In this document: piece after piece, positions 1,466 through 50,770 of the stretch
Layout: every line of letters starts with the position of its first letter
How positions within the stretch are numbered: position 1 is the first letter of the stretch
Assembly (NCBI RefSeq): GCF_000717335.1
Contig: NZ_JNYZ01000009.1
Coordinates: forward strand, 1 to 64,000
Length of the DNA stretch: 64,000 nucleotides
DNA from: Amycolatopsis jejuensis
GTDB taxonomy: Bacteria > Actinomycetota > Actinomycetes > Mycobacteriales > Pseudonocardiaceae
Reading direction: 5' to 3'
Made by a program: the position numbers and the translations under genes
Notes under the pieces: model-generated
Seen by the model: only the letters and a program-made list of their open reading frames with translations
Databases searched by the model: none
What the model was told of the DNA's origin: nothing

Positions 1466-1487
1466 TAACCTACTAGCGAGTAGGTTA
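1466..1487. promoter_or_regulatory. Palindromic operator between fadA2 and fabG4
   Basis: Perfect 9-bp arms TAACCTACT (1466-1474) and AGTAGGTTA (1479-1487) flank a 4-bp spacer in the divergent fadA2/fabG4 promoter region. Related sites lie upstream of the nearby tetR gene (4412-4425) and of fadE5 (50733-50746 and 50757-50770). It is the best operator candidate for the TetR protein encoded at 3679-4338; binding is inferred. Confidence 0.75.
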
Positions 1488-1524
1488 GACTGCGACGTGA
1501 CGCAGACAGCACGGGAGGCACGTG

Positions 1525-2859
1525 ATGGCGGACAGGTACCAGCAGTTCACGAAGACCCCGCTGGGGAAGTTCGTGGTGCCGAAGCTCGGCCTGCCCAATC
1601 CCGCGACGCTGCGCCGGTACCGTCCCGGCCAGCCCGCCCTCGAGGGTCCCGCACTTCTCGGCGCGGCGCCCGGCGGAAGGCTGGAGAAGACCGTCCGCGC
1701 CCAGCTCACCGGAGCCGGGATCGAGGTGCTCTCCGCACCGGCAGACCGGCACGCGGCACTCGTCTTCGACGCCACCGGCATCACGGACCCGGCCGGCTTG
1801 CGTGAGGTGTACAGGTTCTTCCATCCGGTGATCCGCAAGGTCGGGGCGTCCGGGCGGGTCGTCGTGCTGGGCACGCCGCCGGAGCTGGCCGAGGGGCGCG
1901 AGCGGATTGCGCAGCGCGCGTTGGAGGGGTTCGTCCGGTCGGTCGGCAAGGAGCTCAAGCGCGGCGCGACGGCGCAGCTCGTGTACGTGGCCGAGGGCGC
2001 CGAGGAAGCCGCCGAGTCGACGCTGCGGTTCCTGCTGTCGGCGAAGTCGGCGTTCGTGGACGGGCAGGTGATCCGCGTCGGCACGCACGTCAAGACCGCG
2101 CCCGCGCCGGAAAACTGGGACAAACCGCTGGACGGCAAGGTCGCGCTGGTCACCGGCGCGTCGCGAGGGATCGGCGAGGCGATTGCCGAAACCCTGGCCC
2201 GCGATGGTGCCCACGTCGTGGCGCTCGACATCCCGGCGCAGGGCGGCGATCTGTCCACAGTGGCCAATCGGATCGGTGGTTCGGCGCTGCAGCTGGACAT
2301 CACGGCGGCCGACGCGCCCGCGAAGCTCGCCGAATACCTGGTCGAACGGCACGGTGGCGTCGACGTCGTCGTGCACAACGCGGGTATCACGCGCGACAAG
2401 ACTCTCGGCAACCTGACCGAAAGCGGGTGGGACGCGGTCCTCGCGGTGAACCTGTCCGCACAGCTCGCGGTGAACGACAAACTGCTGGGCGACCAGGTGT
2501 TGCGCGAGAACGGCCGGATCATCGGGGTGTCGTCGATCGCCGGAATCGCGGGGAATGTGGGGCAGACGAACTACGCGACGTCGAAGGCGGGCGTGATCGG
2601 GATGGTGAACGTCGGCACGCCGCAGCTCGCGGAGTACGGCGGCACGATCAACGCGGTCGCGCCGGGGTTCATCGAGACCAAGATGACGGCCGCGGTGCCG
2701 CTCTTCATCCGCGAAGCCGGACGGCGGCTGTCGAGCCTCGGTCAGGGCGGGCTGCCAGTGGACGTCGCGGAAACGATTGCGTGGTACGCAAGCCCGGCGT
2801 CGGCGGCGGTCAACGGAAACCTGGTGCGCGTGTGCGGCCAGGCTTTGCTGGGAGCGTGA
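1525..2859 (+). CDS. fabG4: High-molecular-weight 3-oxoacyl reductase, FabG4-like
   Basis: A two-part short-chain dehydrogenase of 444 residues: an N-terminal degenerate Rossmann-like half (about 1-200) and a C-terminal SDR half. The second half carries the nucleotide-binding VTGASRGIG motif (about 211-219), NAG in HNAGITRDK, the SSIAG serine and the YATSK catalytic Tyr/Lys pair. The family (HMwFabG, FabG4 in mycobacteria) reduces 3-oxoacyl-CoA or -ACP, usually with NADH. The ATG at 1525 has GGGAGG 6 nt upstream; a GTG at 1522 would be too close. It is followed after 3 nt by htdX, so the two are almost certainly one operon. Confidence 0.92.
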   Translation: MADRYQQFTKTPLGKFVVPKLGLPNPATLRRYRPGQPALEGPALLGAAPGGRLEKTVRAQLTGAGIEVLSAPADRHAALVFDATGITDPAGLREVYRFFHPVIRKVGASGRVVVLGTPPELAEGRERIAQRALEGFVRSVGKELKRGATAQLVYVAEGAEEAAESTLRFLLSAKSAFVDGQVIRVGTHVKTAPAPENWDKPLDGKVALVTGASRGIGEAIAETLARDGAHVVALDIPAQGGDLSTVANRIGGSALQLDITAADAPAKLAEYLVERHGGVDVVVHNAGITRDKTLGNLTESGWDAVLAVNLSAQLAVNDKLLGDQVLRENGRIIGVSSIAGIAGNVGQTNYATSKAGVIGMVNVGTPQLAEYGGTINAVAPGFIETKMTAAVPLFIREAGRRLSSLGQGGLPVDVAETIAWYASPASAAVNGNLVRVCGQALLGA

Positions 2860-2862
2860 GCC

Positions 2863-3690
2863 ATGTCCGTTCGTGAGCTGACGAGCGCCCCGAGCCTCGC
2901 CACGCTGTACCCCAAAGCCTTGCTTCGCCGCGGCGGCTCTTCTTCCTTACCGGACACCGAGTTCGTGCGCCCGGAAGTCGTCGTCGACCCGGCGCACGTC
3001 GCGGCGTACAACGAGGTCTGCGGATTCCGTTTTTCGGACACCTTGCCGGTGACGTATCCGCACATGCTGGTGTTCGGACTGCAGATGGCGCTGATGACCG
3101 AGCCGGGTTTCCCCTTCCCGCTGCTCGGCCTGGTACACGTGGAGAACCGGATCACGCAACGCCGTCCGCTGCAGCTGGGCGAGACGTTCCGGGTGAGCGT
3201 CCGCGCGGAAAACCTGCGTGCGCACGAAAAAGGCCGCCAGTTCGACATGGTGAGCGAGGTCTTTTCCGGCGTCGATCCGGTGTGGACCGAGGTGTCGACG
3301 TACCTGCGCCGCTCGGGTACCGGCGCGTCGGCCAGGCGCACCCAGCTGACGCCCCCGGCGCCGACCGCGTTGTGGCACGTCCCGGCCGACATCGGCCGCC
3401 GCTACGCCGAGGTGTCCGGCGATCGAAACCCGATCCACCTGCACGCCCTGACCGCGCGAATGTTCGGCTTTCCCAGGGCGATCGCGCACGGAATGTGGAC
3501 GAAGGCGCATGCTTTGGCGTCGTTCGAGGGCCGGCTGCCGGACGGGTTCAGCGTTGCGGTGCGGTTCAAGCAGCCGGTACTACTCCCGGCCCGCGCGGAG
3601 TTCACGACGTGGCAGACCGCGGAGGGGTGGGCGTTTGAGCTTTGGCGGGGGGAGAAACCGCATTTGGACGGGGTGATTTCACCCCTCTGA
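2863..3690 (+). CDS. htdX: MaoC-like (R)-3-hydroxyacyl dehydratase, HtdX-like
   Basis: 275 residues with a C-terminal hot-dog MaoC domain. The hydratase-2 signature is visible as YAEVSGDRNPIH followed by GFPRAIAHGM, supplying the catalytic Asp and His. The N-terminal half is a degenerate second hot-dog domain, giving the double-hot-dog layout of HtdX. It should interconvert 3-hydroxyacyl and enoyl thioesters, the step after FabG4. The start lies 3 nt after the fabG4 stop. The 3' end overlaps the convergent tetR gene by 12 bp. Confidence 0.88.
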   Translation: MSVRELTSAPSLATLYPKALLRRGGSSSLPDTEFVRPEVVVDPAHVAAYNEVCGFRFSDTLPVTYPHMLVFGLQMALMTEPGFPFPLLGLVHVENRITQRRPLQLGETFRVSVRAENLRAHEKGRQFDMVSEVFSGVDPVWTEVSTYLRRSGTGASARRTQLTPPAPTALWHVPADIGRRYAEVSGDRNPIHLHALTARMFGFPRAIAHGMWTKAHALASFEGRLPDGFSVAVRFKQPVLLPARAEFTTWQTAEGWAFELWRGEKPHLDGVISPL

Positions 3691-4338
3691 CGGTTTCCAG
3701 ACCTGCCCTTCCACGAGGTCGTTGAACCCGAGCCACACCAGGTTCATCAGCCAGGACGCGAGGACCCCGTCGGAGATTTCCGGGTGGTCCAGTGCCCAGT
3801 CGGCAAGGGATTCGGCGGCGCCGACCAGCGCGGCGGCCAACCCGGTGCCCGAGAACTCCGCCTGTTCGCCGAGGCCCTTGCGCGTACCCGCGGCCACCAC
3901 GAGGGCCGCGACCAGCTCGATCGCCCGCATCCGCATCGCGGTGATTTCCGCCGCGAACGTGCCACCGACGGTGAGGGCTTGGCGATGCAGCACCGTCCAC
4001 GACTCGCGGTATTCGGCGACGAACCGGTAGAACGAGCGCAGGCCGTGCCAGAGCTGCATGTCCGGCGGGAGGTCGGGCTGTACCCCGGCTTGGATGGCCT
4101 CCAGCAGACGCGTCGCCTCGCGCTGGATGCTCTTGCCGAAGAGGTCTTCCTTCGAGCCGAGATAGGTGTAGATCATCGGCTTGGAGACGCCCGCGACCTC
4201 GGAGATCTCGTCCATCGACGCCGAGTGGTAGCCGTGCCGGGAGAACACCTGCACCGCGGCGTCCAGGATCTGCCGTTCGCGGACCGCCCGCGGCAGCCGC
4301 CGGGCTCGCTCGGGTTGGCGCTGATCTTCGTCGGGCAC
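3679..4338 (-). CDS. TetR-family regulator, candidate regulator of the fadA2/fabG4/fadE5 set
   Basis: 219 residues with an N-terminal TetR helix-turn-helix (about 20-65: ILDAAVQVFSRHGYHSAS, then EVAGVSKPMIYTYLGSKEDLF) and an all-helical ligand domain. The GTG start at 4338 has GGGAGG about 10 nt upstream. It faces the SCP2 genes across a 120-bp region that carries a palindrome (4412-4425) matching those at fadA2/fabG4 and fadE5. This suggests autoregulation plus control of fatty-acid/acyl-CoA genes, possibly with an acyl-CoA ligand. Ligand and targets are inferred; the fold assignment is firm. Confidence 0.88.
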   Translation of the reverse strand: MPDEDQRQPERARRLPRAVRERQILDAAVQVFSRHGYHSASMDEISEVAGVSKPMIYTYLGSKEDLFGKSIQREATRLLEAIQAGVQPDLPPDMQLWHGLRSFYRFVAEYRESWTVLHRQALTVGGTFAAEITAMRMRAIELVAALVVAAGTRKGLGEQAEFSGTGLAAALVGAAESLADWALDHPEISDGVLASWLMNLVWLGFNDLVEGQVWKPSEG

Positions 4339-4405
4339 AGTGCTTCGACCTCCCTCTCGCTGGCAGGAAACGGTACCCGGCGCCCTGCCCCCAGCGTGCT
4401 TGCCG

Positions 4406-4427
4406 GGCTACCTACTCATCGGTAGCC
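4406..4427. promoter_or_regulatory. Palindromic operator between tetR and SCP2 genes
   Basis: Arms GGCTACC (4406-4412) and GGTAGCC (4421-4427) pair perfectly. In the register of the fadA2/fabG4 site it reads CTACT-N4-GGTAG at 4412-4425, one mismatch from the shared consensus. It lies between tetR (start 4338) and the first SCP2 gene (start 4459) and could control both directions. Confidence 0.65.
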
Positions 4428-4458
4428 TTATGTCGGAAAGTTCCGGAAGGGGTGGAAG

Positions 4459-5094
4459 ATGGCGGACAACCCGGAGGCGACCAGCGTCGACCTGGCCGGC
4501 CTGCGCGGGGTCGCGCTGCTGGACGCACTGGAGCGCGCCGACGTGAGCGACCTGGACGTCAACGCGGTCGCCGACGCCATCGACCCCCGCGAACTCGGCC
4601 GCGACGACGTCAGCAGGCTGCTGGCCACTCTGGTCCGGCTGGCCGAGCGCGCACCCGCGTTCGCACTGGAAAAGGTCGACCCGACGAGGTTCGCCACGCT
4701 GGTCGCGCGCGCGTCACGGGCACAGCTGGAAGCCGTGGTCGCCGAGCGCACGCTGCGCGAACGGGTACTGGACGAGATCTTCGCGCGCATGGGAGCGCAC
4801 ATCCGTGCGCGTTCGTTGCACGCGGTCGTGCACTGGCGCCTGTCCGGCGGCACCGGCGCCGGTGGCTATGACCGCTACGAGACAGTGATTTCCTCCGGCT
4901 CGTGCACGGTGTCCCGCGAAATGCGCGAGAAACCCCGGGTGACGATCACGCTTTCCCCAGTGGACTTCTTCCGCATCATCACCCACCAGGCGACCCCCGC
5001 GGTCCTGTTCGTCACGGGGAAACTGAAGGTGAAGGGTGACCTGGCCTTCGCCGCCGGCCTCACCAGCCACTTCGACCTCCCGCGACCGGCCTGA
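4459..5094 (+). CDS. SCP2 sterol-binding-domain protein (copy 1)
   Basis: 211 residues. The C-terminal half (about 100-211) has the SCP2-like pattern: a helix HIRARSLHAVVHWRLSGG, strands around GYDRYETVI, RVTITLSPVDFFRIITHQATPAVLFVTGKLKVKGD, and a final hydrophobic segment. Such domains bind acyl-CoA or sterol-like lipids in a hydrophobic tunnel. The N-terminal half is a charged helical region of unknown role. The start has GGAAGGGG 6 nt upstream. It is followed closely by a paralogue; the operator at 4406-4427 just upstream links it to the lipid regulon. Confidence 0.8.
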   Translation: MADNPEATSVDLAGLRGVALLDALERADVSDLDVNAVADAIDPRELGRDDVSRLLATLVRLAERAPAFALEKVDPTRFATLVARASRAQLEAVVAERTLRERVLDEIFARMGAHIRARSLHAVVHWRLSGGTGAGGYDRYETVISSGSCTVSREMREKPRVTITLSPVDFFRIITHQATPAVLFVTGKLKVKGDLAFAAGLTSHFDLPRPA

Positions 5095-5152
5095 CCCGGT
5101 GCCCCGCTGGCGTTCCCGCACGCGCGCCGCGCGCTCCCCCGGTGAGCACGCG

Positions 5153-5698
5153 GTGAACGGCTTCGCGCGCTCGTTGTCGATCGGGAAGCTGACCCCCGAA
5201 CAGTTCGTGCAGGTCCTGGAAACGCTGCACATGCTGGGCACCGCCGGCGCCGGCATCGAGTTGAGCTCCCTCACCACGCAAGCACTGGTAGACGTGGTAG
5301 CCGCCGCGACCCGCGACCAGCTGAAGGCCATCTCCGACCACGCGGACCTGCGCGCAGTCTTCTTGGACGAGATCTTCCGCCGCATGTCCGAACACTTCCG
5401 CCCGGACCGCGCCCGCCACATCGACATCGTGGTCTCCTGGCGCTTCCCCAACGGCGCCGAATACGACCGCTACCAGACGGTCATCGAAGACGGCTTGTGC
5501 GTGTCGAGCACCGACCTGACCCGCACGCCAGACACGACGATCACGGTGTCAGTCGAGGATTTCATCCGCATGGCGACGGGTAATGCAGCGGTGGCGGCGA
5601 TGTTTGTCACGGGGAAGGTGAAGGTGAAGGGGGAGTACGCACCGGCTGTTCGATTGTCGGGGTACTTCGACATTCCGAAGCCGAGTGATGCGGGCTGA
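5153..5698 (+). CDS. SCP2 sterol-binding-domain protein (copy 2)
   Basis: A paralogue of the preceding gene: the blocks VLDEIFARM/FLDEIFRRM, YDRYETVI/YDRYQTVI and FVTGKLKVKGD/FVTGKVKVKGE align without gaps, so this pair is a tandem duplication. It probably binds the same class of lipid. The start is uncertain: GTG at 5153 gives 181 residues; GTG at 5099, 4 nt after the previous stop, gives 199. Neither has a good ribosome-binding site, so translation may be coupled to the upstream gene. Residues before VNGFARSL look like frame-extension sequence, so 5153 is preferred. Confidence 0.75.
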   Translation: MNGFARSLSIGKLTPEQFVQVLETLHMLGTAGAGIELSSLTTQALVDVVAAATRDQLKAISDHADLRAVFLDEIFRRMSEHFRPDRARHIDIVVSWRFPNGAEYDRYQTVIEDGLCVSSTDLTRTPDTTITVSVEDFIRMATGNAAVAAMFVTGKVKVKGEYAPAVRLSGYFDIPKPSDAG

Positions 5699-5700
5699 GC

Positions 5701-6945
5701 TCACCCGGCGAGGTCGTCGAGAAGCCAATCGAGCACCATCTCTTCCTCGACTTTGCTGCCGATCTCAGTCATTGCGACGCTCAGCTTGGGATCCCAACGG
5801 GCCACTACCGGCGATCCGCTGAGGGCGGCGCTCGGACGCCGTGCGGCCTGCCGGTATGCGGCGGCGTCAAACCGCCACGGTCGGACCGGCAGCCGATCGA
5901 AAAGGACGTTGCCGATGCGGATGCCGCCCCAGTCGAAATCGCTGTGGTGGCGTAGTTCGGCACCGGTCTCGGCAAGCGCTCGAAGGAGCGCCATGACCGC
6001 CGTTCCCGGCTGGCCGTAGGTGCAGACCAGCGGCGGGCAGGCTGGCCCGAGGCGGTCCGCGGCTGCGGTGACCACGACCGGGTTCTCGCAGACGAAGACG
6101 AGCTGGTCAGTCAACCGCGGTGGGTCCCGGACGAGCTGACGCAGGGTCAGGACCGCGGGCTCGCCCGCGGCGTGGAAGGCAGCGAGGGCCTGGCCGGTCG
6201 TGGTCTGCGGGTCACCAGACAGGCCGAGGGTGAGGACGGTGCTGGACACCTCATCGCGCAGCACCCCGACGGCGGCCCAGACCTCCCGGTTGGTCGCGGT
6301 GTCGGATACCTCGGCAAGCGCTCGTGCGGCGCTCAGCGCGAGTGTGGCCAGAGGTTTGCCGTCGTCGAGGCCGTGCGCGTCCTGGATGGTGCGCGCGGCC
6401 AGGTGCCCTAGAGGTTCACCGGATGCGGGTAGTTCAGTGAGAACCTTGGCGAGGTCGGCGAGCAGCTGGGCAGCGGTCTCCGGGGTGACAGCCAGCCTGC
6501 GGACGAGCCCGGTCGCGTGCTGGCGTTCGTACCACCTTTCCAGTTCCGGCCGCGTCTGCACGATCGCCGCAACCGGGACGAAAGCCTGCTGCCAGGCCGT
6601 TTCCACCGCGGCACGGTGCGCGCTGCGGTCGACGATCGGGCCGCCGAGCGCGACCACCGCAGCGACGAGTCCTTCACGGCTGGCGCCGGAGCGTCGGAGC
6701 ACTTCGTCGACCGCGGGTAGCGCCACCGTCAGGGCGTTTCCCGCCCGCGGTCGCCGTCCGAGCAGGCGGTGCACCGCGTCGCGCTGAGCGAGGGTGGCAT
6801 CGGGGAGCGTAATGGTGGTGTCCAGCGTTTCGCCCCGTTCGAGCCTTCGTCGTACGCGCTCGACCAGCCATGTCAGTTCGGTACCGAGAAGCCGGGCCAG
6901 CCGCGCCCGGTCGACCGCAGGTGCTGGGGGGTGCTGATGGTTCAT
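5701..6945 (-). CDS. jetD: Wadjet protein JetD, TOPRIM-type nuclease subunit
   Basis: 414 residues. The C-terminal third has the TOPRIM signature of the DUF2399/TIGR02679 family: a Glu in FVCENPVVV (about 287) and the acidic pair in HSDFDWGGIRI (about 336-338), the metal-binding nuclease residues. In Wadjet systems JetD cleaves circular DNA that the JetABC SMC motor has extruded into loops. The ATG at 6945 overlaps the jetC stop as ATGA, so longer in-frame extensions are rejected. It is the last gene of a four-gene operon whose members all overlap by 4 bp. The subtype by published numbering is uncertain to me. Confidence 0.9.
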   Translation of the reverse strand: MNHQHPPAPAVDRARLARLLGTELTWLVERVRRRLERGETLDTTITLPDATLAQRDAVHRLLGRRPRAGNALTVALPAVDEVLRRSGASREGLVAAVVALGGPIVDRSAHRAAVETAWQQAFVPVAAIVQTRPELERWYERQHATGLVRRLAVTPETAAQLLADLAKVLTELPASGEPLGHLAARTIQDAHGLDDGKPLATLALSAARALAEVSDTATNREVWAAVGVLRDEVSSTVLTLGLSGDPQTTTGQALAAFHAAGEPAVLTLRQLVRDPPRLTDQLVFVCENPVVVTAAADRLGPACPPLVCTYGQPGTAVMALLRALAETGAELRHHSDFDWGGIRIGNVLFDRLPVRPWRFDAAAYRQAARRPSAALSGSPVVARWDPKLSVAMTEIGSKVEEEMVLDWLLDDLAG

Positions 6946-9900
6946 TGCTGCTCGTCGTCCGGAGCGAGCTGATCGGTGTCGCTCCACAGGTCGTCCATGG
7001 CCGCTGTGGGTGAAGGCTCGACCAGTATTTTCCGCCGGCCGTCCCATTCCCAGTTAGTGACGAGTACCGCGGCGACTTCGTCGGTCCTGGACAGCTGCGA
7101 GATGGCGAGGCCCGGCACTTCCGGGTAACAGCCCCATTCTCGTTCGCTTGTCATCACCACGTCGAGGTCGAATGCGGCGAGCAGGCCGAGGTACTTCGCG
7201 CGGGCATTGTCGTCGACGCCGGCGAATGCTTCGTCCAAGGTCACCAGCCGCGGCGCATGCGGATTGCCGGCGGAGCCGTAGTGCGACGATGCGGCCGCGA
7301 AGAGCGGCACGCTGGCCGCCAGCACCCGTTCTCCGCCCGAGGCTGGGCCGGTCGCCGGTTTCCATTGGCCGTTCTGGTGGCGCTGGATGACGAACCGGTT
7401 CCAGGCCCGGTAGTCCAGTGCCGTGGTCAGGTGCTCGAGCCAGGTGCCGGAGCTGTCCTGTGCCCGCACCTCCGCAATCCTGGCCTGCAGGAATGCGCCG
7501 ACGGCCGCTCGATCCTCCTCGGACCAGGCGTCGGCGGTCTGGCGCAGCAACCGCTCCCGGGCAGCGGCCAGCCCGGCCGGGCCGTCCTCGCGGGGCCGCC
7601 ACTGAAGCCGCAGCCGCATCCCGGTACTGGTCGGCCGTTCGGAGAGCTCCACATTCATGCGCGCGACCTGGGCTTCGGCGGTGGTGATGAGCTCCTGCAG
7701 AGTACTCGCCACTTCGTTGACCAGGTGGTTTTCCAGGATTTCCCGCTCGCGTTCGTTCAGCAGCCGCTCCCGGTCAGCCACCTCGGCGGCGAGCGCAGTG
7801 GTCAGTTCCGGCATGGTTGCCGGCTTTCCGCGGAACTCGACCTCGACCACCAGACCGTCTTCGAGCAGGTCGCCGGAAACCCGGCTGCCTTGGCGCGACA
7901 GCGTGTCGGTGAGGCTCTTGAGCTCGTCGTTGACCTGCTTCTGCGTGCGATCCCAGGCATTGTCGTCGTCCGGGGTGTCAGCGAGTTCCTCGTTCACCCG
8001 CCGGGCGAGCCGGACGGTCGGATCAGGCGCCCATGCTTCGAGCGGATCCGGGATCGGCAAGTTGGGCAGCGCCACCGCGAGCAGGCCGGTCCGTGCGAAT
8101 CGTCGTAGGGATTCAGTCGCTGCAGCGCGTTCCTTGGTTGCGCCTTGCAAGTCCTCGCGGAGTTTTCCGCGGAGAGCGTCCGCCTTGCCCCGGGCATCGA
8201 TCGCGACGTCACGCTCCCGGCCGGCGCCGGTCGCAGCAGTTTCGTTGTCCGCTATGGCTTTCGCTACTGCGGCCAAGCGTGCTTCGAGCTCCGCGACGGC
8301 CGCCCCGACGGTTTCGCGCAGCGTCCGGTGGTGCTCAGCGGTGGTGGCCGCGGTCTGTTCCGCGGTCGCCGCGCGGTCCGCCACCTCGGCGAGGTCCGCA
8401 TCGGCTTCTTCCCGTTCTTCGGTTGCTTGCTGCGCTGCGCGGCGTGCCTCGGCAACCGCGTTGAGCACGGGCCAAAGCCCAGCGAGCGCGACCCGGTAGT
8501 CGGAAAGGCCATCCTCCACTTCGGAGAGTGCAGCGCTGGTCGTTGGCAAGCCGGTGTCCATTGCGGACTCGGCGAGCGTGGCCCGGGCCGTCTCGGCGGC
8601 CTCGCTCGCAGCGACCACAGCGGCCTGTGCGTCCGACTGTCTTATCGTCATCCGGTGCACATCGTCGGCCAGTCGTTGGGCTGCGGAGTGTGCATCGTGC
8701 AGGGTAGCGTCGGACGGCATGCCGGACACCTCGTTGTTGAGCGTGTGCTGACGTTGCCGCAGCTTGCCTCGCTCCTGCGCGAGCGCGCTCAGTTTTGCTT
8801 CGACCTCGGCAAGTTCGGCGAGCAGTGTCTCGAGCCGGGCCCGTCTGGCGGCCTCCCGGGCGCCGCGTCCGACGTACTCCGCGGCCGGCTTGTGCCAGGC
8901 TCCGCGCAGCACACCAATCTGGTACTCCCCGGCCGTGTTGACCCAGGTTTCGCCGCTCCCGTCCAGCCCAATTGCGCCGAGCAGTTCGGCCACCGTTGCG
9001 TCGGAAACCGCATCGGCCAGCGGATCTTCTCGATCAACCGCGGGGGTCAGCACCGTGGCCAGGCTCGTGCCGTCGATCGTGTGCCGCGGGCTGAGGACAA
9101 CGTCTTCGGTATCTGGCGAAAGCAGCTCGCCTGCAGGGGTGACCCAGGCGTCGAGGACACCGGCGGCTTCGAGCGCTGCTTCGAGGCCCGCGCGGTCGGC
9201 AGGCGCCACGTCGGCCGCGAAGTCGACCAGCTGCCAAAAGGGGGCGCCGAAGCGAGCGGATCGGGCAGCGTGCCGGCGGGTGTAGGGCGTCGGTGGGGCG
9301 TTGTCCTCACCGCGCTCCAGCCGTTCGATCTCCGCCACGAGCTCGCCGGATCGCTCGCGCGTGGTGCGCTCCTCGGCTTCGTGTGTGGCGTCCGTGCGGG
9401 CAAGGTTCGCAGCTGCTGCTTGTCCGGCAGTGGTCACCGCGGCGGCGGCGGGATTTACATCCGCCATCGTCTCGATCCAGAGCTCGAGCTCGGCGAACGT
9501 GCTTGCCGGGTCGACAAGGTGCAGTTCGGTGGCGCCGTCGAGGTGCTCGCGGATCGCCGTGACCAACGTTCGCCCGCACTCGACGATGCGGCTTTCTGCC
9601 TCGACCCGCCGCTCCGCGAGTTCAGTTGCCTCCGCATCCAGGTCGGTGGCCTTGCGTCGGGTTTCGGCCAGTGTGCGTTGGGCCGCATCGACGGCGCGAA
9701 TCAGCCTCGTCACTTGCTCGATGGCGTGCTGTTGCCGCTTGGCCAGTTGATCGGCGGCCGAGCGTAGCCGGGCAACCTCGGGTTCGGTGTCGAGCGGGGA
9801 GTTGATGCGTTCAGCATGCAGGGCGTCGATCCTCGCCACGGTCGAGGCGCTCTTCGCGTGTTCCCGGGCATCGCTGAGCGCAGCGTCGATTTTAGACAAT

Positions 9901-11057
9901 TGTTCCGCTGCGCGGGTTTCCTGGGCACGACGAATGGCGAACTTGGTGGTGGCCTTGTCCTGGGCGACCTTGAGTCGAGTCTTCTCATCGCCGGCCTTAC
10001 GGGCGTCTTCGGCGGCGCGCGCGAGCTCTTGCGCACTGCGCATCTCGGGGCCAGTACGCAGGGCGGCGTCGCGCGTTTGCAATTGGTTGCGTGTCGCGGT
10101 GAGCTCGGCCAGCGTCGCCTCCGCAGCAGCCAGTGCCGTTTTCGCCTGTTCATAGGCATTTTCCGCGGCAGTCAAGTCTTCACTGACCCGCCGGTAAGTG
10201 ACTTGGGCTGCCCGCGGAAGCGCGGCTCGGCGCCGCGAGGCGATCCGCGCGTAGCGGCTGTAATGGCTCAGGAACGTATTCGCCGCTTGGTGCGCTTCGG
10301 TCATCGCGACGAGGGAGTTGCGGTCTTCTTCGAGGCTGCGGAACGCGTCTGCAACGTCCGCGACCACGGCTTGATCAAGCGGTGGCAACGCTTCGGTGAG
10401 TGCTGCGGACAGTGCCTTTTCACTGGGGCGCTTGGACAACTGAGGCTGCCGCAACTGCACGAGCAAGTCCACCAACGCGTCGTATCGTTGTTCGCCGAAG
10501 CTGAACAGCGCTTCGTCGACGGCGCGCCGGTAGTTGCGGGCGCGCTCGTAGACTGTGCCGTGTTCGCCGAGCGCGTCGCTGAGACGATCCTTGCTCAACG
10601 CTGTTGCAGTCGCGTCGACCAGCTCGAGATCAGCGCCGACCCGCTGCTCGGTGACGAAGTACCAATGCCGGGCGATCCCTTTCCCGGACACCGCTTTCAT
10701 CCCACAACCGAGGGTGGTGAACCGAGGCATCCCGTCGTCGTCGATGCGGCCGAACTCGAGCCAGGTGTACCCGAGCCGTTCCGGGTAGGGGTGTGCCCCA
10801 CCGAGCAGGAGGTTCCATTCCATCTTCTTTTTCGGGTCTGCATCCGGCTCGACCCGATGCGGCGACAGGTCGCCGTCGAGCAGAAACGGCAGCATGAGGG
10901 CGAGCACTTTGGACTTGCCCGTGCCATTGTTGCCGCGCAGCAGCAGACGTCCATCGCGGAACCGGAACTCTTCGGTGTCGTAGTAGAAGAGGTCGACTAG
11001 TCCGGCGCGCAACGGTTGCCAGCGTTCCAGGGACGGCTCAGGCAGAGTTCGGGTCAT
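6942..11057 (-). CDS. jetC: Wadjet protein JetC, SMC-like ATPase (TIGR02680 type)
   Basis: 1371 residues. The Walker A motif GNNGTGKSK is at 42-50. Long Ala/Glu/Arg-rich coiled coils fill the middle on either side of a compact hinge-like segment (about 560-740). Near the C-terminus is an ABC signature-like PASGGERVL followed by Walker B LVTLDEAFAGVD (about 1271-1280). This is the split-head layout of SMC/MukB-type ATPases. With JetA and JetB it forms a condensin-like motor that senses small circular DNA. Start and stop overlap jetB and jetD by 4 bp (ATGA), so the subunits are translationally coupled. The gene is intact. Confidence 0.93.
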   Translation of the reverse strand: MTRTLPEPSLERWQPLRAGLVDLFYYDTEEFRFRDGRLLLRGNNGTGKSKVLALMLPFLLDGDLSPHRVEPDADPKKKMEWNLLLGGAHPYPERLGYTWLEFGRIDDDGMPRFTTLGCGMKAVSGKGIARHWYFVTEQRVGADLELVDATATALSKDRLSDALGEHGTVYERARNYRRAVDEALFSFGEQRYDALVDLLVQLRQPQLSKRPSEKALSAALTEALPPLDQAVVADVADAFRSLEEDRNSLVAMTEAHQAANTFLSHYSRYARIASRRRAALPRAAQVTYRRVSEDLTAAENAYEQAKTALAAAEATLAELTATRNQLQTRDAALRTGPEMRSAQELARAAEDARKAGDEKTRLKVAQDKATTKFAIRRAQETRAAEQLSKIDAALSDAREHAKSASTVARIDALHAERINSPLDTEPEVARLRSAADQLAKRQQHAIEQVTRLIRAVDAAQRTLAETRRKATDLDAEATELAERRVEAESRIVECGRTLVTAIREHLDGATELHLVDPASTFAELELWIETMADVNPAAAAVTTAGQAAAANLARTDATHEAEERTTRERSGELVAEIERLERGEDNAPPTPYTRRHAARSARFGAPFWQLVDFAADVAPADRAGLEAALEAAGVLDAWVTPAGELLSPDTEDVVLSPRHTIDGTSLATVLTPAVDREDPLADAVSDATVAELLGAIGLDGSGETWVNTAGEYQIGVLRGAWHKPAAEYVGRGAREAARRARLETLLAELAEVEAKLSALAQERGKLRQRQHTLNNEVSGMPSDATLHDAHSAAQRLADDVHRMTIRQSDAQAAVVAASEAAETARATLAESAMDTGLPTTSAALSEVEDGLSDYRVALAGLWPVLNAVAEARRAAQQATEEREEADADLAEVADRAATAEQTAATTAEHHRTLRETVGAAVAELEARLAAVAKAIADNETAATGAGRERDVAIDARGKADALRGKLREDLQGATKERAAATESLRRFARTGLLAVALPNLPIPDPLEAWAPDPTVRLARRVNEELADTPDDDNAWDRTQKQVNDELKSLTDTLSRQGSRVSGDLLEDGLVVEVEFRGKPATMPELTTALAAEVADRERLLNEREREILENHLVNEVASTLQELITTAEAQVARMNVELSERPTSTGMRLRLQWRPREDGPAGLAAARERLLRQTADAWSEEDRAAVGAFLQARIAEVRAQDSSGTWLEHLTTALDYRAWNRFVIQRHQNGQWKPATGPASGGERVLAASVPLFAAASSHYGSAGNPHAPRLVTLDEAFAGVDDNARAKYLGLLAAFDLDVVMTSEREWGCYPEVPGLAISQLSRTDEVAAVLVTNWEWDGRRKILVEPSPTAAMDDLWSDTDQLAPDDEQQ

Positions 11058-12247
11058 CGGCGTTCCTGGATGGTCACTTCGGCCAGCGCGTACCGGGACA
11101 GGGCAGGCCGAGCGGTGGCCGCTTCGGTAGTCAGACTGATCAGCCGCAGGGCTGCGAGCCGGGACAACGCAAGCGCCGTCAACTCGATTTCCGCGCCGGG
11201 TTCAGCGGCGGCCCGACGCCAGTAGGTGCGATTTATGGCAGCGAACTCGCGGAGCTTGGCATGCAGTTCGGGCAACGGAACCTGGCGATTACCGGTTCCG
11301 GCTAGATATTCCGCGAGCAGCAGGGTGGCATGGCCTTCGGTGCCGCTTTCGGGCATGCGGACGTCGGTGAGGTCGTCGACCGGGTCGACCATGGCGATGC
11401 CTTCGGCGCGAATTTCGGCGACCAGCCCGGTCAGTTCCCCGATCCGGGAAGTGATCGCGGCGCGCTGGCTGGTGAGGTAGGTGAGTTCCGCTTCCGTCAG
11501 CTCGTCAAAATAGAGCACTGGTTCGTCTAGCAGGCGCCGGGTCAGCTGGTGACGGATGCGCTGGTTGCGCAAGTCTTCCGTGGTGGGTGGGAGCTCCCCG
11601 GTCAGCGCGGCGAGGCGAGCTTCGAAGCTGTCCGCCTGGATCGTGGATGGCCCGCGCGGTGTGGCCAGCAGTGCCCCCAGCACGCGGCGTTCTACGTCGT
11701 AGAGCACGTCTCCGGTGTCTTTGACGAACGCGTCCTCGTCGCCTGCGACGCGGCTGAGTACCCCGAGGTCGAGCAGGAACCGGACTACGGAAACCAGGTC
11801 GCCGCGTTCTTCCCGGCCCCGCAGGGTGAACTCGATTCCGGCGTCGACCAGGTCCGGATCACCCGCGCCAAGGACGACTTGCTCGGCGAGCCGGCCGAGG
11901 GTGATCTGTGCGTCCGCGCGGTCGAGGGTGGCCAGTGCGAGGCAGAGCAGCACGTACCGACGGCGGCCGAACGGCTGCTTGGCACGTACGTCCCGAGCTG
12001 GGTGGGTGTGATCTGTGGTCGTCGCTGCGGTTTTGACCAGGCGCGCGACCTCGCTGTCGACAAGCAGGCGCCAGCCGGTGTTGCGGTCGAACCAGGCGCG
12101 CAGCTCGCTCGCGTGCCGCCGGATCGCGGCGAAGTCGTCAGAACCCGGACCGGATGCCCGCACGATCGGGCGGCGCAGGAGCGCGCGTGCCGCCCGCCGG
12201 AAGTCGTCGACGTGGGAGGCGGACAGTGCATCAGCCAGCGAACTCAT
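11054..12247 (-). CDS. jetB: Wadjet protein JetB (DUF2398/TIGR02678)
   Basis: 397 residues, recognised as the TIGR02678/DUF2398 protein of this cluster by its position and by FGRRRYVLLCLALATLDRAD and NRTYWRRAA-like blocks. It is thought to be the KITE-like winged-helix subunit that bridges the JetC heads and the JetA kleisin. It overlaps jetA upstream and jetC downstream by 4 bp each. There is no enzymatic motif, as expected. It is full-length for the family. Confidence 0.88.
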   Translation of the reverse strand: MSSLADALSASHVDDFRRAARALLRRPIVRASGPGSDDFAAIRRHASELRAWFDRNTGWRLLVDSEVARLVKTAATTTDHTHPARDVRAKQPFGRRRYVLLCLALATLDRADAQITLGRLAEQVVLGAGDPDLVDAGIEFTLRGREERGDLVSVVRFLLDLGVLSRVAGDEDAFVKDTGDVLYDVERRVLGALLATPRGPSTIQADSFEARLAALTGELPPTTEDLRNQRIRHQLTRRLLDEPVLYFDELTEAELTYLTSQRAAITSRIGELTGLVAEIRAEGIAMVDPVDDLTDVRMPESGTEGHATLLLAEYLAGTGNRQVPLPELHAKLREFAAINRTYWRRAAAEPGAEIELTALALSRLAALRLISLTTEAATARPALSRYALAEVTIQERR

Positions 12248-13788
12248 CCGACCGCTTCTTCGATGTCGGTCGCCGTGAGGTCGACGATCTCCACCAGGTG
12301 ATCCGGTCCGCGGAACACGCCATGTGGAGTATTGATCGCGGCGTCTCCAGCGCCGTCGACAGCTGTCAGCCGGATGGACATACTGCCGTCTGAGGTCGTG
12401 GTTTCCACGCTGCGCCGCCCCGGCGTGCGGGCGGCGAGCGCGTCCCCGAGCAGAGTCAGGAACAGCCGAAAGGTGTTCGGATCGAGTTCGCCGAGGTCGG
12501 CGAGCCGGGTTGGCCGGCTGGTGACCAACGCGGCTCGGGCGGCCGCGGTCTCCGCTGCCTCGCGGGCGGCAAGTGCGGCCAGGTATCGACGTTGTTTGCT
12601 GCGGTCGACCACCCGGTTCGGCTTGCCCCGCCGCTCGTAACTGCCGGTCTTGCGCAGCCGAGGGCTAATCTCCAGCGGTGGTGCCTGTGCCCACGGCGTG
12701 CTCGCTGGGACCGGATTCTCTTCGCGGGCCCGGAGGGTGTCCGAGTCCACGGTCAGGTGCCGGGCGGCGGACAGCCCGAAAGCCGAGCGCCAGAGCCGGT
12801 GCGCTGATGTCTCGTCCGGTGCCTGTGCGAACCATTTCGCCAGACTGCGGAAATCGGCGGACCGATCCGACCGTCCGGCCCGGCGTTCGTTGAGCGCTGC
12901 GACGACCTGGAGCAGCTGCGGAATAGCCGCCCTGGCCTGTGACCGGAGAAGTTTCGCCTGGCTAGGGTGCTGCTGTTCGCTGATGAACCAGCTACGCACG
13001 CCCTGCCAACGGTCCCGCCACAGCGGCAGCAGACGTTCGAACTCAACCTGCCGGGGGTCGTCGACACCGGCCGCCTCGCCCGGTGCGGCGTCCTCCGCTT
13101 CACGCCAGGCGGTGAGGTCAAGCAGCGCGCCGACGCCGAGCTCCTCGATTTCGCCGATCAGGGCGGTGATCTTGCCACCCGTGCCGACCAGGTCACGGAT
13201 GAATCGCTCGAGGTAGTCGATCAACCGGTCTTTGTAGGCGCGGAAAGCGTCGGCATCGGCGTCGTGCAGATCGATCGTGCGTTGCAGGGACGCCATGAAC
13301 GCTTGCGCGTTGCTCGCCAGGTCGGTGAATCGGTCGACCAGTGCACGAAGGAGCAGGTGCACTTTTGCCGGATCGGGCTGAGACTGCCGAGCGAGCTCGA
13401 GCAACGCCCGCAGCTGGCCGGCGATGTCGGACAACGCGACGGCCTGCAATGCGCCACGCCGGCCAAGCGCCTCGTCGTACGCGGCGATCGCCTGCTCGGC
13501 AGCCTCGCCACGTTCGGTGAGCTGGTAGAGGAATCGGGCCCGGTGGAAGTCCTCCACCGTGGTGACCCGGCTCGTGTCCGGATCCGCGCGGAGGTTCCCC
13601 CACTCCACCAACCGGGCGAGTGAATCGGCGACCGCGGTGAGCTCGGTCCCGGTGACCGTTTCGTGCACGTCCTCCGGCCGAAGGTGCACCGTGAAGCGAC
13701 GCTTGGCCTGCACGAATGCGTGCATGAGCTGGCGGTAGAGGGTGCTGTTGGGTGCGGTCAGGTGCGCGAACGGCTGGAATTCCTGCAC
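12244..13788 (-). CDS. jetA: Wadjet protein JetA, kleisin-like subunit (DUF2397/TIGR02677)
   Basis: 514 residues from a GTG at 13788, with AGGAG 5 nt upstream (13794-13798). The in-frame extension upstream reads into the promoter and the opposite gene and is rejected. The N-terminus (FQPFAHLTAPNSTLYRQLMHAF) and the helical middle are typical of TIGR02677, the first gene of the conserved four-gene set. By analogy with MukF/MksF it is the kleisin that closes the SMC ring. It is divergent from the SRA-HNH gene across about 117 bp. Confidence 0.88.
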   Translation of the reverse strand: MQEFQPFAHLTAPNSTLYRQLMHAFVQAKRRFTVHLRPEDVHETVTGTELTAVADSLARLVEWGNLRADPDTSRVTTVEDFHRARFLYQLTERGEAAEQAIAAYDEALGRRGALQAVALSDIAGQLRALLELARQSQPDPAKVHLLLRALVDRFTDLASNAQAFMASLQRTIDLHDADADAFRAYKDRLIDYLERFIRDLVGTGGKITALIGEIEELGVGALLDLTAWREAEDAAPGEAAGVDDPRQVEFERLLPLWRDRWQGVRSWFISEQQHPSQAKLLRSQARAAIPQLLQVVAALNERRAGRSDRSADFRSLAKWFAQAPDETSAHRLWRSAFGLSAARHLTVDSDTLRAREENPVPASTPWAQAPPLEISPRLRKTGSYERRGKPNRVVDRSKQRRYLAALAAREAAETAAARAALVTSRPTRLADLGELDPNTFRLFLTLLGDALAARTPGRRSVETTTSDGSMSIRLTAVDGAGDAAINTPHGVFRGPDHLVEIVDLTATDIEEAVG

Positions 13789-13905
13789 CTCGGCTCCTCT
13801 TCTCGGCCTGTCTAAGAGGGTACGGGTGACCACCGACAGAATCCCGAGGTGCTGGGCGGTCAGTCTCGGCGGCTTCTGTCGGCGTCCCGCCATAGAGTGA
13901 TGCGC
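13789..13905. promoter_or_regulatory. Divergent promoter region of jetA and the SRA-HNH gene
   Basis: A 117-bp spacer carries both promoters. A TAGAGT -10-like hexamer at 13893-13898 lies 7 nt before the ATG at 13906, so the restriction gene may be transcribed leaderless. The jetA ribosome-binding site is at 13794-13798. I see no convincing operator. Confidence 0.4.
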
Positions 13906-15096
13906 ATGGCATTTGCAGACATTCGGGCCGACCACGTGCGGGCCGCCGTCGTCGAGTTTGAGCGGCTGCAGCAGGGCGAATTCCTTGCCCGGTATGGGCT
14001 CCCGTCGGACAAACGGTACGACCTGCTGGTTGAGCCATACGCCTACCCTGCCCGGGCGATTGTCTGCCGAGCGTATCACTTGGCGACCGGAGGTAAGCTC
14101 CCGACAAGCCAGGCCAACGGAGCCATCGCGTTGTTCCTTACTTGCCTGACGGACCTGGGCTTTGAGGTCATCGATCGGGAGACAGCTCCCCGGTTCGGGG
14201 AGATTCCGGGGGTACCGGAGGGCACGACGTTCGTAGATCGACGTGCGGCCCAGGCACGGGGCACGCATCGGGCTGGGCAGGCTGGCATTGTTGGCACCGG
14301 TCAGACGGGCGCTGAGTCGATCGTCGTTTCCGGCGGTTACGGCGACCAGGACTATGGTTCCGTGATTCTCTACGTCGGGCACGGTGGGCGCGCTAAGAAC
14401 TCCAAGAAGCAAATCGCCGATCAGAGCTTCGCTGCTCCCGGTAACGCGGCCTTGCTGAACAGTTGCACTACCGGCGCTTCTGTCCGGGTGGTTCGTGGCG
14501 CGCATCCTGGGTCGGATTATGCACCGAAATCTGGATATCGCTACGATGGTTTGTTTCGGGTGGACCATGCCGAGCAGGTTCGGCTCGATGATGGTTTTGT
14601 TCGTTGCCTTTTCTGGATGTCCACTCTCACCGTTGATGTGCTCAGTGGACCGCTGGTTCCGGTGGAGATATCAGCCACAGATGAGGAAGTCTCGTTACCT
14701 CCGGGAAAATCTCAGCCTGGCCGACGGACGGTTGTCGCCGAGCGGGTGATCCGAGTCACTCGAGTGGCGCGCGGGATCAAGCTCATGTACCGCGATACCT
14801 GCCAGATGTGTCGAGTCCAGTTGGCGGTGGGTGATCGAACTTATTCGGAGGGTGCGCATATCAAAGCGCTCGGCAGCCCCCATAATGGCGACGACGAACC
14901 GAGGAACATGCTGTGTCTTTGTCCGAACTGCCACGCCCTCTTTGACTTGGGCGGTATCATTATTCGGGATGACCTGTCACTTATTCGAAATGGTTCACCG
15001 GCAGGTTCACTGCACGTGTTGCCAGGTCATGAAATTGATATGAAGAGCGTCGCTTACCATCGAGCAGCGGCCCGAAGGACGGCGCTGAAGACGTGA
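13906..15096 (+). CDS. SRA (YDG)-HNH modification-dependent restriction endonuclease, McrA-like
   Basis: 396 residues in three parts. An N-terminal helical region (about 1-85) contains the KRYDLLVEPYAYPARAIV block common in front of such proteins. A central SRA domain (about 95-245) has SGGYGDQDYG, GHGGR, DQSFA-N-AL, VRVVRG and SGYRYDGLF, the base-flipping fold that reads modified cytosine. The C-terminal HNH nuclease (about 295-360) has Cys pairs CQMC and CLCPNC plus AHIKAL, RNM and CHALFD. This resembles ScoMcrA-type type IV enzymes that cut methylated (and sometimes phosphorothioated) DNA. An ATG at 13900 or GTG at 13897 is also possible. Codon use is less GC-rich toward the 3' end than in neighbours, consistent with transfer. 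Confidence 0.85.
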   Translation: MAFADIRADHVRAAVVEFERLQQGEFLARYGLPSDKRYDLLVEPYAYPARAIVCRAYHLATGGKLPTSQANGAIALFLTCLTDLGFEVIDRETAPRFGEIPGVPEGTTFVDRRAAQARGTHRAGQAGIVGTGQTGAESIVVSGGYGDQDYGSVILYVGHGGRAKNSKKQIADQSFAAPGNAALLNSCTTGASVRVVRGAHPGSDYAPKSGYRYDGLFRVDHAEQVRLDDGFVRCLFWMSTLTVDVLSGPLVPVEISATDEEVSLPPGKSQPGRRTVVAERVIRVTRVARGIKLMYRDTCQMCRVQLAVGDRTYSEGAHIKALGSPHNGDDEPRNMLCLCPNCHALFDLGGIIIRDDLSLIRNGSPAGSLHVLPGHEIDMKSVAYHRAAARRTALKT

Positions 15097-36370: not shown

Positions 36371-36621
36371 CAAACCGTGGCATGGGCAATTTCCGGCAAG
36401 ATCACCTGTTGTATTCATTCCTCGCAGTTACTACTCGTGAGTAGTCAACACTGACAGGCAAGTTGTGGATCACACGGCCGGTACTGTGTGAATGTGCCCG
36501 CTTTCCCTGGGTGACCGGGCTCTCTCGAGTCACTTCGCGGGGTCCTCCGCTACTCCGTTAGGCCCCTTGCTCATCCGCCGTTGATCCGATTCGCTGGGGG
36601 CCGACCACTGTGGGGAGAAGC
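36371..36621. promoter_or_regulatory. Divergent region with palindrome ACTACT-N4-AGTAGT
   Basis: The spacer between the ESX-associated operon and the beta-solenoid gene. A perfect palindrome with arms ACTACT (36430-36435) and AGTAGT (36440-36445) and a 4-bp spacer matches the YTACY-N4-RGTAR consensus of the fadA2/fadE5 sites. Nothing else stands out. Confidence 0.5.
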
Positions 36622-48034: not shown

Positions 48035-48085
48035 GAGCCCTCCTCACCGACGCCCTTGTGCGAGAGAGATCACACAGGCTACCGA

Positions 48086-48380: not shown

Positions 48381-48398
48381 TGCCGGGAAACTGAACGG

Positions 48399-48950
48399 AT
48401 GCCGGTGAAACCGACCAAGGCCCAGCAGGCCGCCGCCCACGGGACGACCATCCCGGACGTGCTGGCACCCGGCCTGGACGTGCTGTTCTGCGGAATCAAC
48501 CCGGGCCTGTACTCGGGAGCGCTCGGCCTGCACTTCGCCCGCCCGGGAAACCGCTTCTGGCCCGCGCTGCATGCGGGTGGCTTCACCGAGCGGGTCATGG
48601 ACCCGAGTGAGCAGGAGGACCTGCTGGACCTGGGCTTGGGAATCACGAACGTCGTAGCGAGGACGACAGCCCGCGCGGACGAGCTGTCCGCCGCCGAACT
48701 GCGTGCCGGTGGCGAGATCCTGGTGCGGAAGGTGCTTGAGTATCGGCCGCGCTGGCTGGCGGTGGTGGGGATCACGGCGTACCGCACGGCTTTCGATGAC
48801 CGACGTGCTGTTGTCGGGCGTCAGTCGCGGGTGATCGGGTCTTCGAAGGTGTGGGTACTGCCGAACCCGAGTGGGCTGAACGCCCACTGGACACCCGCCA
48901 CGCTGGGGGAGGAATTCGCCCTGCTGAGGAGGGCAGTTCAGAGCGGCTGA
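48399..48950 (+). CDS. mug: G/U mismatch-specific DNA glycosylase
   Basis: 183 residues from the ATG at 48399. The Mug/UDG family 2 motifs are visible: VLFCGINPGLYSGALGLHFARPGNRFW (motif A with the catalytic Asn in GINPG) and WVLPNPSGLNAHW (motif B). It removes uracil or modified bases from mismatched DNA, important in a GC-rich genome prone to cytosine deamination. The last 13 bp overlap the convergent zinc-ribbon gene. Confidence 0.92.
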   Translation: MPVKPTKAQQAAAHGTTIPDVLAPGLDVLFCGINPGLYSGALGLHFARPGNRFWPALHAGGFTERVMDPSEQEDLLDLGLGITNVVARTTARADELSAAELRAGGEILVRKVLEYRPRWLAVVGITAYRTAFDDRRAVVGRQSRVIGSSKVWVLPNPSGLNAHWTPATLGEEFALLRRAVQSG

Positions 48951-49531
48951 AGGTTGTTCTCGGTGAGGAAGCGTTCCCACCTGTCCATACACCGCTTGGC
49001 AAGCACCAGTGCGTCTTCTGTTTGCACGATCTTGTGCTCGGTCCACGCGAAGGTGGCAGTGGTTCCATGCTCGGCGAACGAGATGCTCTGGATTCGTGCC
49101 GTGATGCCGCCGTTGCGAGTGTGGTGTTTGCTCGTGTTCGCAACGGCGCGGCAGATCCTCCAGCTCGGATCGTCCTTCGGCAGGTGCTCAACTTCGGTCT
49201 TCAACGCTTTGGTCGATGGATCCTGGCTTATCCAGTCACCCAAGTGCGTGCACGCGATGAAGAACGTCTCGATGACTCGTTTCACGCGGTCGACTTCCCG
49301 ACGATTCGCCAGGGTCTCTTCGACATCGGCGAGTTGCTGCCGCACCAGGTGCCACTGCTCATACCAGGGCCGGGTCTCGGCAAAGGTGACGCCGAGTCCA
49401 GCTGAACCCGACTCCGCCGTAACCACGGCAGTCGGAGGCTGGACTGTCAACACCTGCCGCGCACTCCCGCAGGCAGCGCACGGCGCATCAGGCCCCGATG
49501 ATTCCTCGCCGCAATCGCGGCACGTCCTCAT
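48938..49531 (-). CDS. Zinc-ribbon hypothetical protein
   Basis: 197 residues. The N-terminus is a zinc ribbon (MRTCRDCGEESSGPDAPCAACGS: two CxxC pairs), followed by an unrelated helical domain (about 60-190; YEQWHLVRQQLADVEETLANR, IETFFIACTHLGDWI, CRAVANTSKHHTRNGG). The SKHH segment resembles proteins of unknown function in which residues around an N-SKHH motif are conserved. I do not know its role. Confidence 0.7.
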   Translation of the reverse strand: MRTCRDCGEESSGPDAPCAACGSARQVLTVQPPTAVVTAESGSAGLGVTFAETRPWYEQWHLVRQQLADVEETLANRREVDRVKRVIETFFIACTHLGDWISQDPSTKALKTEVEHLPKDDPSWRICRAVANTSKHHTRNGGITARIQSISFAEHGTTATFAWTEHKIVQTEDALVLAKRCMDRWERFLTENNLQPL

Positions 49532-49870
49532 CCCACGAGGCTACCGCGACGATGCCCGAAACCCTCCCCCGAACGAGCACCCTGAGTCACGAAGAAATTC
49601 ACCTGAGCGGCTAAACCCTCAGTAGCGCCAACCAGTCAAAACCGCCATCCACTGGGCCGAATTCCCGCACCTCCACCCCACTTTTCTACGGAGAGTTTGC
49701 TGCGACCGCCCGTTACGGCCATGAGGGGGAAACCGCGTCACAAGGTGCTTCCGGTGGAGTCGAACCAGGGACAAGGTGTCGTTCCCGGCCGGTTCCGGCA
49801 GGGGGGACCGGGTGGCACGCCGAGGGGGTGTGCCGGTCACCGGGAGCGACCTCGAGGACGGAGGCCCGAG
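49532..49870. other. 339-bp intergenic region upstream of the LuxR regulator
   Basis: Between the divergently transcribed zinc-ribbon gene and the LuxR regulator. The regulator's ribosome-binding site GGAGG is at 49860-49864. No repeat, RNA gene or credible small frame was found. Confidence 0.5.
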
Positions 49871-50659
49871 ATGCGTGGCATCGAGCCCCACCGAATGCCC
49901 ATGTCGGCCGGACAGCCGGCCGGCGGCCGTAGCCTGGGGGTGGCCGTCGTCGACCCCATTCCGATTTTCCGTGAGGGCATTGCCGCGATGGTGCATCGCA
50001 CGCTCGGGCTGCATTGGTCCGGGCAGGCGGCGAGTCATCACGCCGCGATGCAGTTGTGCGAGCAGGTCCGGCCGGACGTCGTCATCCTCGACTCCGCGCT
50101 CGATCCGAACTGCCACCTCGCCAAGCTGCTCAACACCGGCGACCCCGCGCTCGTGCTGGTCACGCTCGTGCGGGACACCAATCGCACCCAGCAGTACCTC
50201 GCCGCCGCTATTGCCGCGGGGGCGCATGCGATCGTGCCGCGGGCGGTCGACTCGCGGCGGCTTGCCGAGGCGGTTCGCCGCGCGCACACCGATCGGCGCT
50301 ACATCGATCCCGCGTTGTCGGCGCTCACCGCGCGGCCCAAGCGCGAACCGGCTCCCAGAGCCGCGCCCTCCGACCCGCATCTCGTGCACCCCAAGGCCGC
50401 CATGCCGCTTTCCCGCCGGGAGTACCAGGTCCTGCAGCTCGTTGCCGAAGGGCTGGAGAACTCGGCGATCGCGAAGCTCCTCTTCCTGTCCGTCGAAACC
50501 GTGCGGACCCACGTCAAGAGCATTCTCCGCAAGCTTTCCGCCCGCGATCGGACACACGCCGTGACCATCGCGTTCCGCAGCGGAATCCTGGTCCCCCAGC
50601 TCGACGACAGTGCCGGTCCCGCGGCCGCGCACGAGGTCGTGGCGCGCAGCACCCGGTGA
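49871..50659 (+). CDS. LuxR/NarL-type regulator with degenerate receiver domain
   Basis: 262 residues from the ATG at 49871. The N-terminal receiver-like domain (about 20-150) keeps the phospho-acceptor region VVILDSALD, but one of the paired acidic residues is replaced (VVDPIPIF rather than a DD pair) and the usual Lys is Arg (IVPRAV). The C-terminal LuxR helix-turn-helix (about 180-240) is intact: LSRREYQVLQLVAEG, IAKLLFLSVETVRTHVKSILRKL. No sensor kinase is adjacent. Probably a phosphorylation-independent or ligand-binding regulator; it ends 160 bp before fadE5. Confidence 0.85.
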   Translation: MRGIEPHRMPMSAGQPAGGRSLGVAVVDPIPIFREGIAAMVHRTLGLHWSGQAASHHAAMQLCEQVRPDVVILDSALDPNCHLAKLLNTGDPALVLVTLVRDTNRTQQYLAAAIAAGAHAIVPRAVDSRRLAEAVRRAHTDRRYIDPALSALTARPKREPAPRAAPSDPHLVHPKAAMPLSRREYQVLQLVAEGLENSAIAKLLFLSVETVRTHVKSILRKLSARDRTHAVTIAFRSGILVPQLDDSAGPAAAHEVVARSTR

Positions 50660-50732
50660 GGCAGGTCCCCAGGTCGACGTCGTTGTCCCGGGCGAATCGC
50701 GACCCCTGACCGGGCGGATTCGCTTGCCCTGG

Positions 50733-50746
50733 TTACTCGTAGGTAA
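50733..50746. promoter_or_regulatory. fadE5 operator site 1
   Basis: TTACT-CGTA-GGTAA, one mismatch from a perfect palindrome, matching the YTACY-N4-RGTAR sites at fadA2/fabG4 and tetR. It lies 86 bp upstream of the fadE5 start, in the promoter region. Confidence 0.7.
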
Positions 50747-50756
50747 TATCCTGATG

Positions 50757-50770
50757 TTACCGGCGAGTAA
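50757..50770. promoter_or_regulatory. fadE5 operator site 2
   Basis: TTACC-GGCG-AGTAA, the second tandem copy, 24 bp (start to start) from site 1. Tandem spacing of about two helical turns would let two TetR dimers bind the same face. Confidence 0.7.

Follow-up and report, generated by a model that had tools for sequence, protein, structure and literature searches.

The first 64,000 nucleotides of the Amycolatopsis jejuensis contig NZ_JNYZ01000009.1 (the window) carry fadA2, fabG4, htdX, a tetR gene and two SCP2 genes close together and fadE5 farther along, and promoter regions of these genes share the palindrome YTACY-N4-RGTAR. The questions raised by this locus are which regulator reads the palindrome and how many genes answer to it. 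A first-pass annotation had joined four such palindromes into one regulon under the TetR protein encoded at 3679-4338, and its gene identities (fadA2, fabG4, htdX, TetR, the SCP2 pair and fadE5) hold by domain and NCBIfam profiles (Table 1). We found that this TetR is, by tree and gene order, very probably the orthologue of mycobacterial FdmR (Rv0238), and that the palindrome recurs in excess over control patterns in the whole genome and is conserved in two families. It is likely that the protein binds the palindrome, represses fatty-acid degradation genes genome-wide and is released by long-chain acyl-CoA.

A pattern search of the window returned five exact matches to YTACY-N4-RGTAR, against a mean of 0.06 in dinucleotide shuffles of the same DNA, none of 100 shuffles reaching five. 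All four palindromes first noticed are exact matches at their given positions; the fifth, at 36431-36444, had been missed, and their description as near-identical was loose, the arms being common to all and the central four bases differing. The palindrome between fadA2 and fabG4 lies between two outward-facing -10-like hexamers, TAGACT (1486-1491) and, on the other strand, TACAGT (1462-1467). Both there and at fadE5, the palindromes are placed where a repressor would block the polymerase at these putative promoters.

The genome scan with the 14-bp motif (10.1 Mb, 136 contigs) gave 42 exact sites, compared with 10 for the same arms around an N5 spacer and 13 for a control with one arm base flipped, which suggests that about 30 sites exceed the background and speaks against a random occurrence of the motif. 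The exact core was used for these counts instead of a position matrix built from tetR sites, which over-weighted the flanks. On a strict lipid list, 17 of the 42 sites face a core acyl-CoA or fatty-acid gene and none of the 23 control sites does (Fisher 1.4e-4), with lipid categories hand-assigned once the matches were known and with eight of the 50 site-facing genes (L002, L011, two at L046, L049, L062, L069 and L071) and one control gene (L288:1205-1432) unscanned and counted as non-lipid. The genes facing a site code for a 3-hydroxyacyl-CoA dehydrogenase, a secretory lipase, a KAS III, two acyl-CoA ligases, thiolases, acyl-CoA dehydrogenases, an enoyl-CoA hydratase, EtfB, two fatty acyl reductases with Male_sterility and SDR domains and a crotonyl-CoA reductase. 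Comparison with the congener G085 (50 of its 58 sites covered, orthologues above 55 percent identity) showed that 21 of the 42 site loci, or 20 promoter regions with the fadE5 pair counted once, have a site before the orthologous gene; only two of these 20 are not obviously lipid-related, preceding a 2-isopropylmalate synthase and an NMT1-like protein whose neighbour is a large, sensor-like protein. The site thus appears to mark a beta-oxidation regulon of roughly 20-30 promoters. One operator family does join fadA2/fabG4-htdX, tetR/SCP2 and fadE5, as had been proposed, but a regulon of these genes alone was too narrow.

Conservation was then followed in the own family (120 genomes sampled, 25 candidates scored per genome), where the TetR has a match at 1e-20 in 111 of 120 genomes and at 1e-50 or better in 101, and in Mycobacteriaceae (best 80 of 564 loci). 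The FdmR-bearing family genomes tested, 18 in all, each hold fabG4 and, between it and fadA2, an exact extended palindrome with conserved AAC/GTT flanks; among 12 genomes without an orthologue-grade FdmR match, fabG4 is present in three and its palindrome is exact in two of these. In Mycobacteriaceae, the palindrome stands between fadA2 and fabG4 in 64/64 loci holding both. At the second promoter region, the SCP2 and tetR genes point away from each other in 44 of 49 family loci, which supports the predicted membership of the SCP2 genes in the regulon. Among the first 30 family loci, the exact site was found in 17 of 25 with SCP2 and in none of five without (p 0.009, for related genomes that are not independent), suggesting that it serves SCP2 as much as tetR.

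The start of fadE5 lies 46.5 kb from that of tetR and 49.3 kb from that of fabG4, a distance first read as linkage lost. However, fadE5 is found 8-58 kb from fabG4 in all 17 FdmR-bearing family genomes with both genes on one contig (the 18th has them on different contigs); linkage is therefore loosened, with fadE5 kept in the neighbourhood. The operator is indeed present twice, but the doubling belongs to this family: two exact sites 24-25 bp apart precede fadE5 in 27 of 28 family promoters, whereas the Mycobacteriaceae fadE5 promoters in reach among the best 80 of 564 loci have a site in 8/10 and two exact sites in 0/10.

We investigated the identity of the TetR by domains, profiles, phylogeny and gene order. 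The TetR_N and TetR_C_46 domains are both present but are not specific to FdmR because FasR has both. FasR was the nearest NCBIfam model (NF053731), with 82.4 bits against a cut-off of 330; the same model gives the FasR-type protein L191 of the family only 280.8 bits, also below the cut-off. The scores were 26.7 bits with the KstR model NF033703 (cut-off 280) and 41.2 bits with the MftR model (cut-off 224.9). In a tree of 53 rows, the window TetR falls in a clade of 33 rows (support 98/91) with TetR proteins from other families whose genes adjoin htdX-fabG4-fadA2; FasR and two further groups, C and D, stand outside it. An assignment to FasR was rejected on this position and on the profile score. 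Gene order agrees with the FdmR assignment: the order tetR-htdX-fabG4/fadA2 is that of the mycobacterial loci, and in the Mycobacteriaceae set f8 the genes for TetR, HtdX, FabG4 and FadA2 adjoin one another at 12 of 13 loci, all 12 with the palindrome between fadA2 and fabG4. Rv0238 itself presumably lies next to Rv0241c-Rv0244c. A deposited structure described only as a TetR-like regulator, PDB 3F1B, matches an f8 FdmR with 298 bits over all 187 residues and the window TetR with 138 bits; given the full-length match, an FdmR structure probably exists already, and 3F1B is probably that structure, unrecognised. In the published descriptions, Rv0238 is a repressor of genes for fatty-acid degradation that responds to long-chain acyl-CoA (PMC12403877), a key regulator of fadE5 (PMC9262360) and one of five TetR proteins retained by all mycobacteria analysed, M. 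leprae included (PMC4482099).

According to the mechanism that we propose, a dimer of the FdmR-type TetR would bind the palindrome, whose best form is TAAC-CTACT-N4-AGTAG-GTTA, over or beside the core promoters of fatty-acid degradation genes, and would repress them together with its own divergent SCP2 genes. Long-chain acyl-CoA, formed on the arrival of fatty acids, would release it. The scattered targets would comprise fadA2, fabG4-htdX, SCP2, fadE5 with its two sites, genes for a thiolase, a hydroxyacyl-CoA dehydrogenase and an acyl-CoA ligase, and etfB, and further those for more acyl-CoA dehydrogenases, fatty acyl reductases, a crotonyl-CoA reductase and a lipase/esterase.

Several results weigh against this mechanism. 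At the genome level, the backwards pattern gave 37 sites against 42 and, taken alone, shows no enrichment; it was judged a poor match because it contains ATG/CAT and because backwards counts are high with each of the three patterns (37, then 36 for the backwards N5 pattern and 64 for the backwards flipped-base pattern). The contrast in target genes weakens on a broad lipid list (22/42 sites against 6/23 control sites, p 0.036). The intergenic share is borderline (36/42 sites against 15/23 controls, p 0.056) and was dropped as main evidence since the controls are also mostly intergenic (6/10 for N5, 9/13 for the flipped base). Genes were called with a home-made codon-position score, and gene starts and some intergenic labels are rough; the L012 site was labelled genic although its counterpart in G085 lies 60 bp ahead of the orthologous gene. 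The tetR promoter itself lacks an exact site in 13 of 30 family loci, and only 19 of 80 Mycobacteriaceae tetR promoters hold one (best 80 of 564). Finally, operators persist without the regulator: of the genomes without an orthologue-grade FdmR, all 10 in which fadE5 is present retain its sites (two exact ones in nine, one in the tenth), and 8 of 12 hold an exact site at etfB, compared with 18 of 18 with FdmR. A co-loss of TetR and operator was thus not found at fadE5 and etfB, and in G043, which has neither FdmR nor fabG4, sites remain before fadE5, thiolase, etfB and enoyl-CoA hydratase genes. Something else can therefore hold such sites.

A candidate for this role is FasR, another acyl-CoA-sensing TetR (in the own genome L244, on contig C39), which might dominate at the beta-oxidation promoters, or bind there on a par with FdmR, and leave to FdmR only its own neighbourhood. 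A search of 30 genomes found a FasR-type gene in every one. In 25 of 26 family genomes the promoter of this gene matches the palindrome with at most one mismatch (8 exactly), a further point against FdmR as the only reader, and the oligonucleotide of the published FasR-DNA crystal contains the stretch TACTGGCGAGTT, close to the palindrome core (PMC7382501). The FasR self-sites, however, are without the AAC/GTT flanks of fadA2/fabG4. In mycobacteria, where the fadA2/fabG4 palindrome is conserved, none of three FasR promoters comes within one mismatch of the pattern. Published work also describes FasR as activating fatty-acid synthesis, with fas-acpS as its target. We consider FasR as the main or equal binder unlikely, though a serious contender. 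The naming of the TetR at 3679-4338 as regulator stays likely from its clade and gene order, but with FasR promoters carrying nearly the same palindrome it may not be the sole binder.

A combination of both regulators is also conceivable, and we put it forward tentatively, as a rather doubtful proposal: FasR for synthesis and FdmR for degradation would share one operator in this family and compete at beta-oxidation promoters, and where FdmR and fabG4-htdX were lost, FasR alone would keep the core operators of fadE5, thiolase, etfB and enoyl-CoA hydratase.

As separate observations on FasR, the promoter of the own-genome gene L244 has the palindrome with one mismatch, and five FasR-type genes of genomes without an orthologue-grade FdmR (L186, L187, L175, L188 and L195) have exact promoter palindromes.

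That the palindrome is used by yet another TetR, the paralogue of group C (G000:C4:39960 in the own genome), seems improbable. In G005, a genome without an orthologue-grade FdmR, an exact site flanked by a GTT-like sequence lies in the promoter of L172, the gene of group C, and fabG4 keeps its site, but no exact 14-bp site lies near the own copy and the tree sets the group apart from FdmR. That the motif occurs by chance, with some sites falling near lipid genes by coincidence, is hardly credible: the backwards count and the perhaps 10-13 of 42 sites that are background by the N5 and flipped-base controls would suit it, but the spacing-specific excess and the conservation across families already contradict it.

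FdmR, reportedly defined by Dong in 2021, is known from Mycobacterium marinum and M. tuberculosis, so that the system described here is of an established kind. The two share a TetR of one clade beside htdX-fabG4-fadA2(-fadE5), palindromes placed both between fadA2 and fabG4 and ahead of fadE5, and lipid-degradation targets; the operator comparison covered the mycobacterial fadA2/fabG4 and fadE5 promoters counted above, which have it in common with the window. The present TetR differs from the mycobacterial proteins by an identity of 38-47 percent, by a fadE5 about 48 kb away with two operators, by the divergent SCP2 pair and by many scattered targets. FasR (Rv3208) resembles it as a TetR_C_46 protein, as a long-chain acyl-CoA sensor and in the core of its own-promoter palindrome in this family; it differs in its clade, in the profile score and in its published role as activator. 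KstR, KstR2, MadR and MftR are likewise mycobacterial TetR proteins controlling lipid genes; the sequence comparison covered KstR and MftR, for which the window TetR stays far below the model cut-offs. The published MftR palindrome, T-N2-GGCA-N5-TGCC-N2-A, is a different sequence, and no usable match to the operator emerged from the available text of the papers on mycobacterial MadR and Rv0158.

What is new is the extent of the regulon in this family, the link to SCP2 and the core shared by FasR and FdmR sites; in the accessible part of the open literature searched, there was no report of an FdmR-type regulon outside mycobacteria, nor of a shared FasR/FdmR site. A regulator known from mycobacteria is thereby extended to a second large actinomycete family, with a target list at the level of sites, among whose entries are the SCP2 lipid carriers, etfB, fatty acyl reductases and crotonyl-CoA reductase (an enzyme supplying polyketide precursors). 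The near-identical FasR and FdmR sites also raise a testable question, whether one shared DNA element serves to balance fatty-acid synthesis against breakdown.

Table 1 Genes and palindromic sites of the 64-kb window discussed in the text.
Feature	Position	Strand	Basis
FadA2-type thiolase	141..1439	-	PF00108/PF02803; NF006740, 774.8 bits (cut-off 539)
Extended operator TAACCTACTAGCGAGTAGGTTA between fadA2 and fabG4	1466..1487 (14-bp core 1470-1483)	none	exact match
FabG4-type 3-oxoacyl reductase	1522..2859	+	NF006110, 675 bits (cut-off 410)
HtdX-type MaoC dehydratase	2863..3690	+	PF01575
TetR regulator, very probable FdmR orthologue	3679..4338	-	TetR_N and TetR_C_46; FdmR clade; gene order
Operator between tetR and the SCP2 pair	4412..4425	none	exact match
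SCP2-domain protein, divergent from tetR	4459..5094	+	PF02036
Second SCP2-domain protein	5036..5698	+	PF02036; likelier start is the in-frame GTG at 5099
Fifth site, between poorly characterised open reading frames	36431..36444	none	exact match
fadE5 distal operator, overlapping a TAATAT -10-like hexamer (50744-50749)	50733..50746	none	exact match
fadE5 proximal operator, downstream of the TAATAT hexamer	50757..50770	none	exact match
FadE5-type acyl-CoA dehydrogenase	50819..52660	+	PF12806/PF02770/PF00441

The reading frames flanking the fifth site give a weak pentapeptide match and a weak PE match, and no matching site-gene pair was found among the 50 G085 sites compared. Elsewhere in the genome, the sites L069 and L058 lie near aceE (pyruvate dehydrogenase E1) and leuA, and both are retained in G085, a hint that the control may reach the use of acetyl-CoA beyond beta-oxidation. 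At L064 (G000:C27:270234-276247), a perfect extended palindrome precedes an acyl-CoA dehydrogenase gene, with two TetR-like stretches near. Within the stretch separating tetR from fadE5, a Wadjet-type JetA-JetB-JetC-JetD operon (5701-14568, minus strand; PADLOC models JetA2, JetB2, JetC2 and JetD2) adjoins the SCP2 genes.

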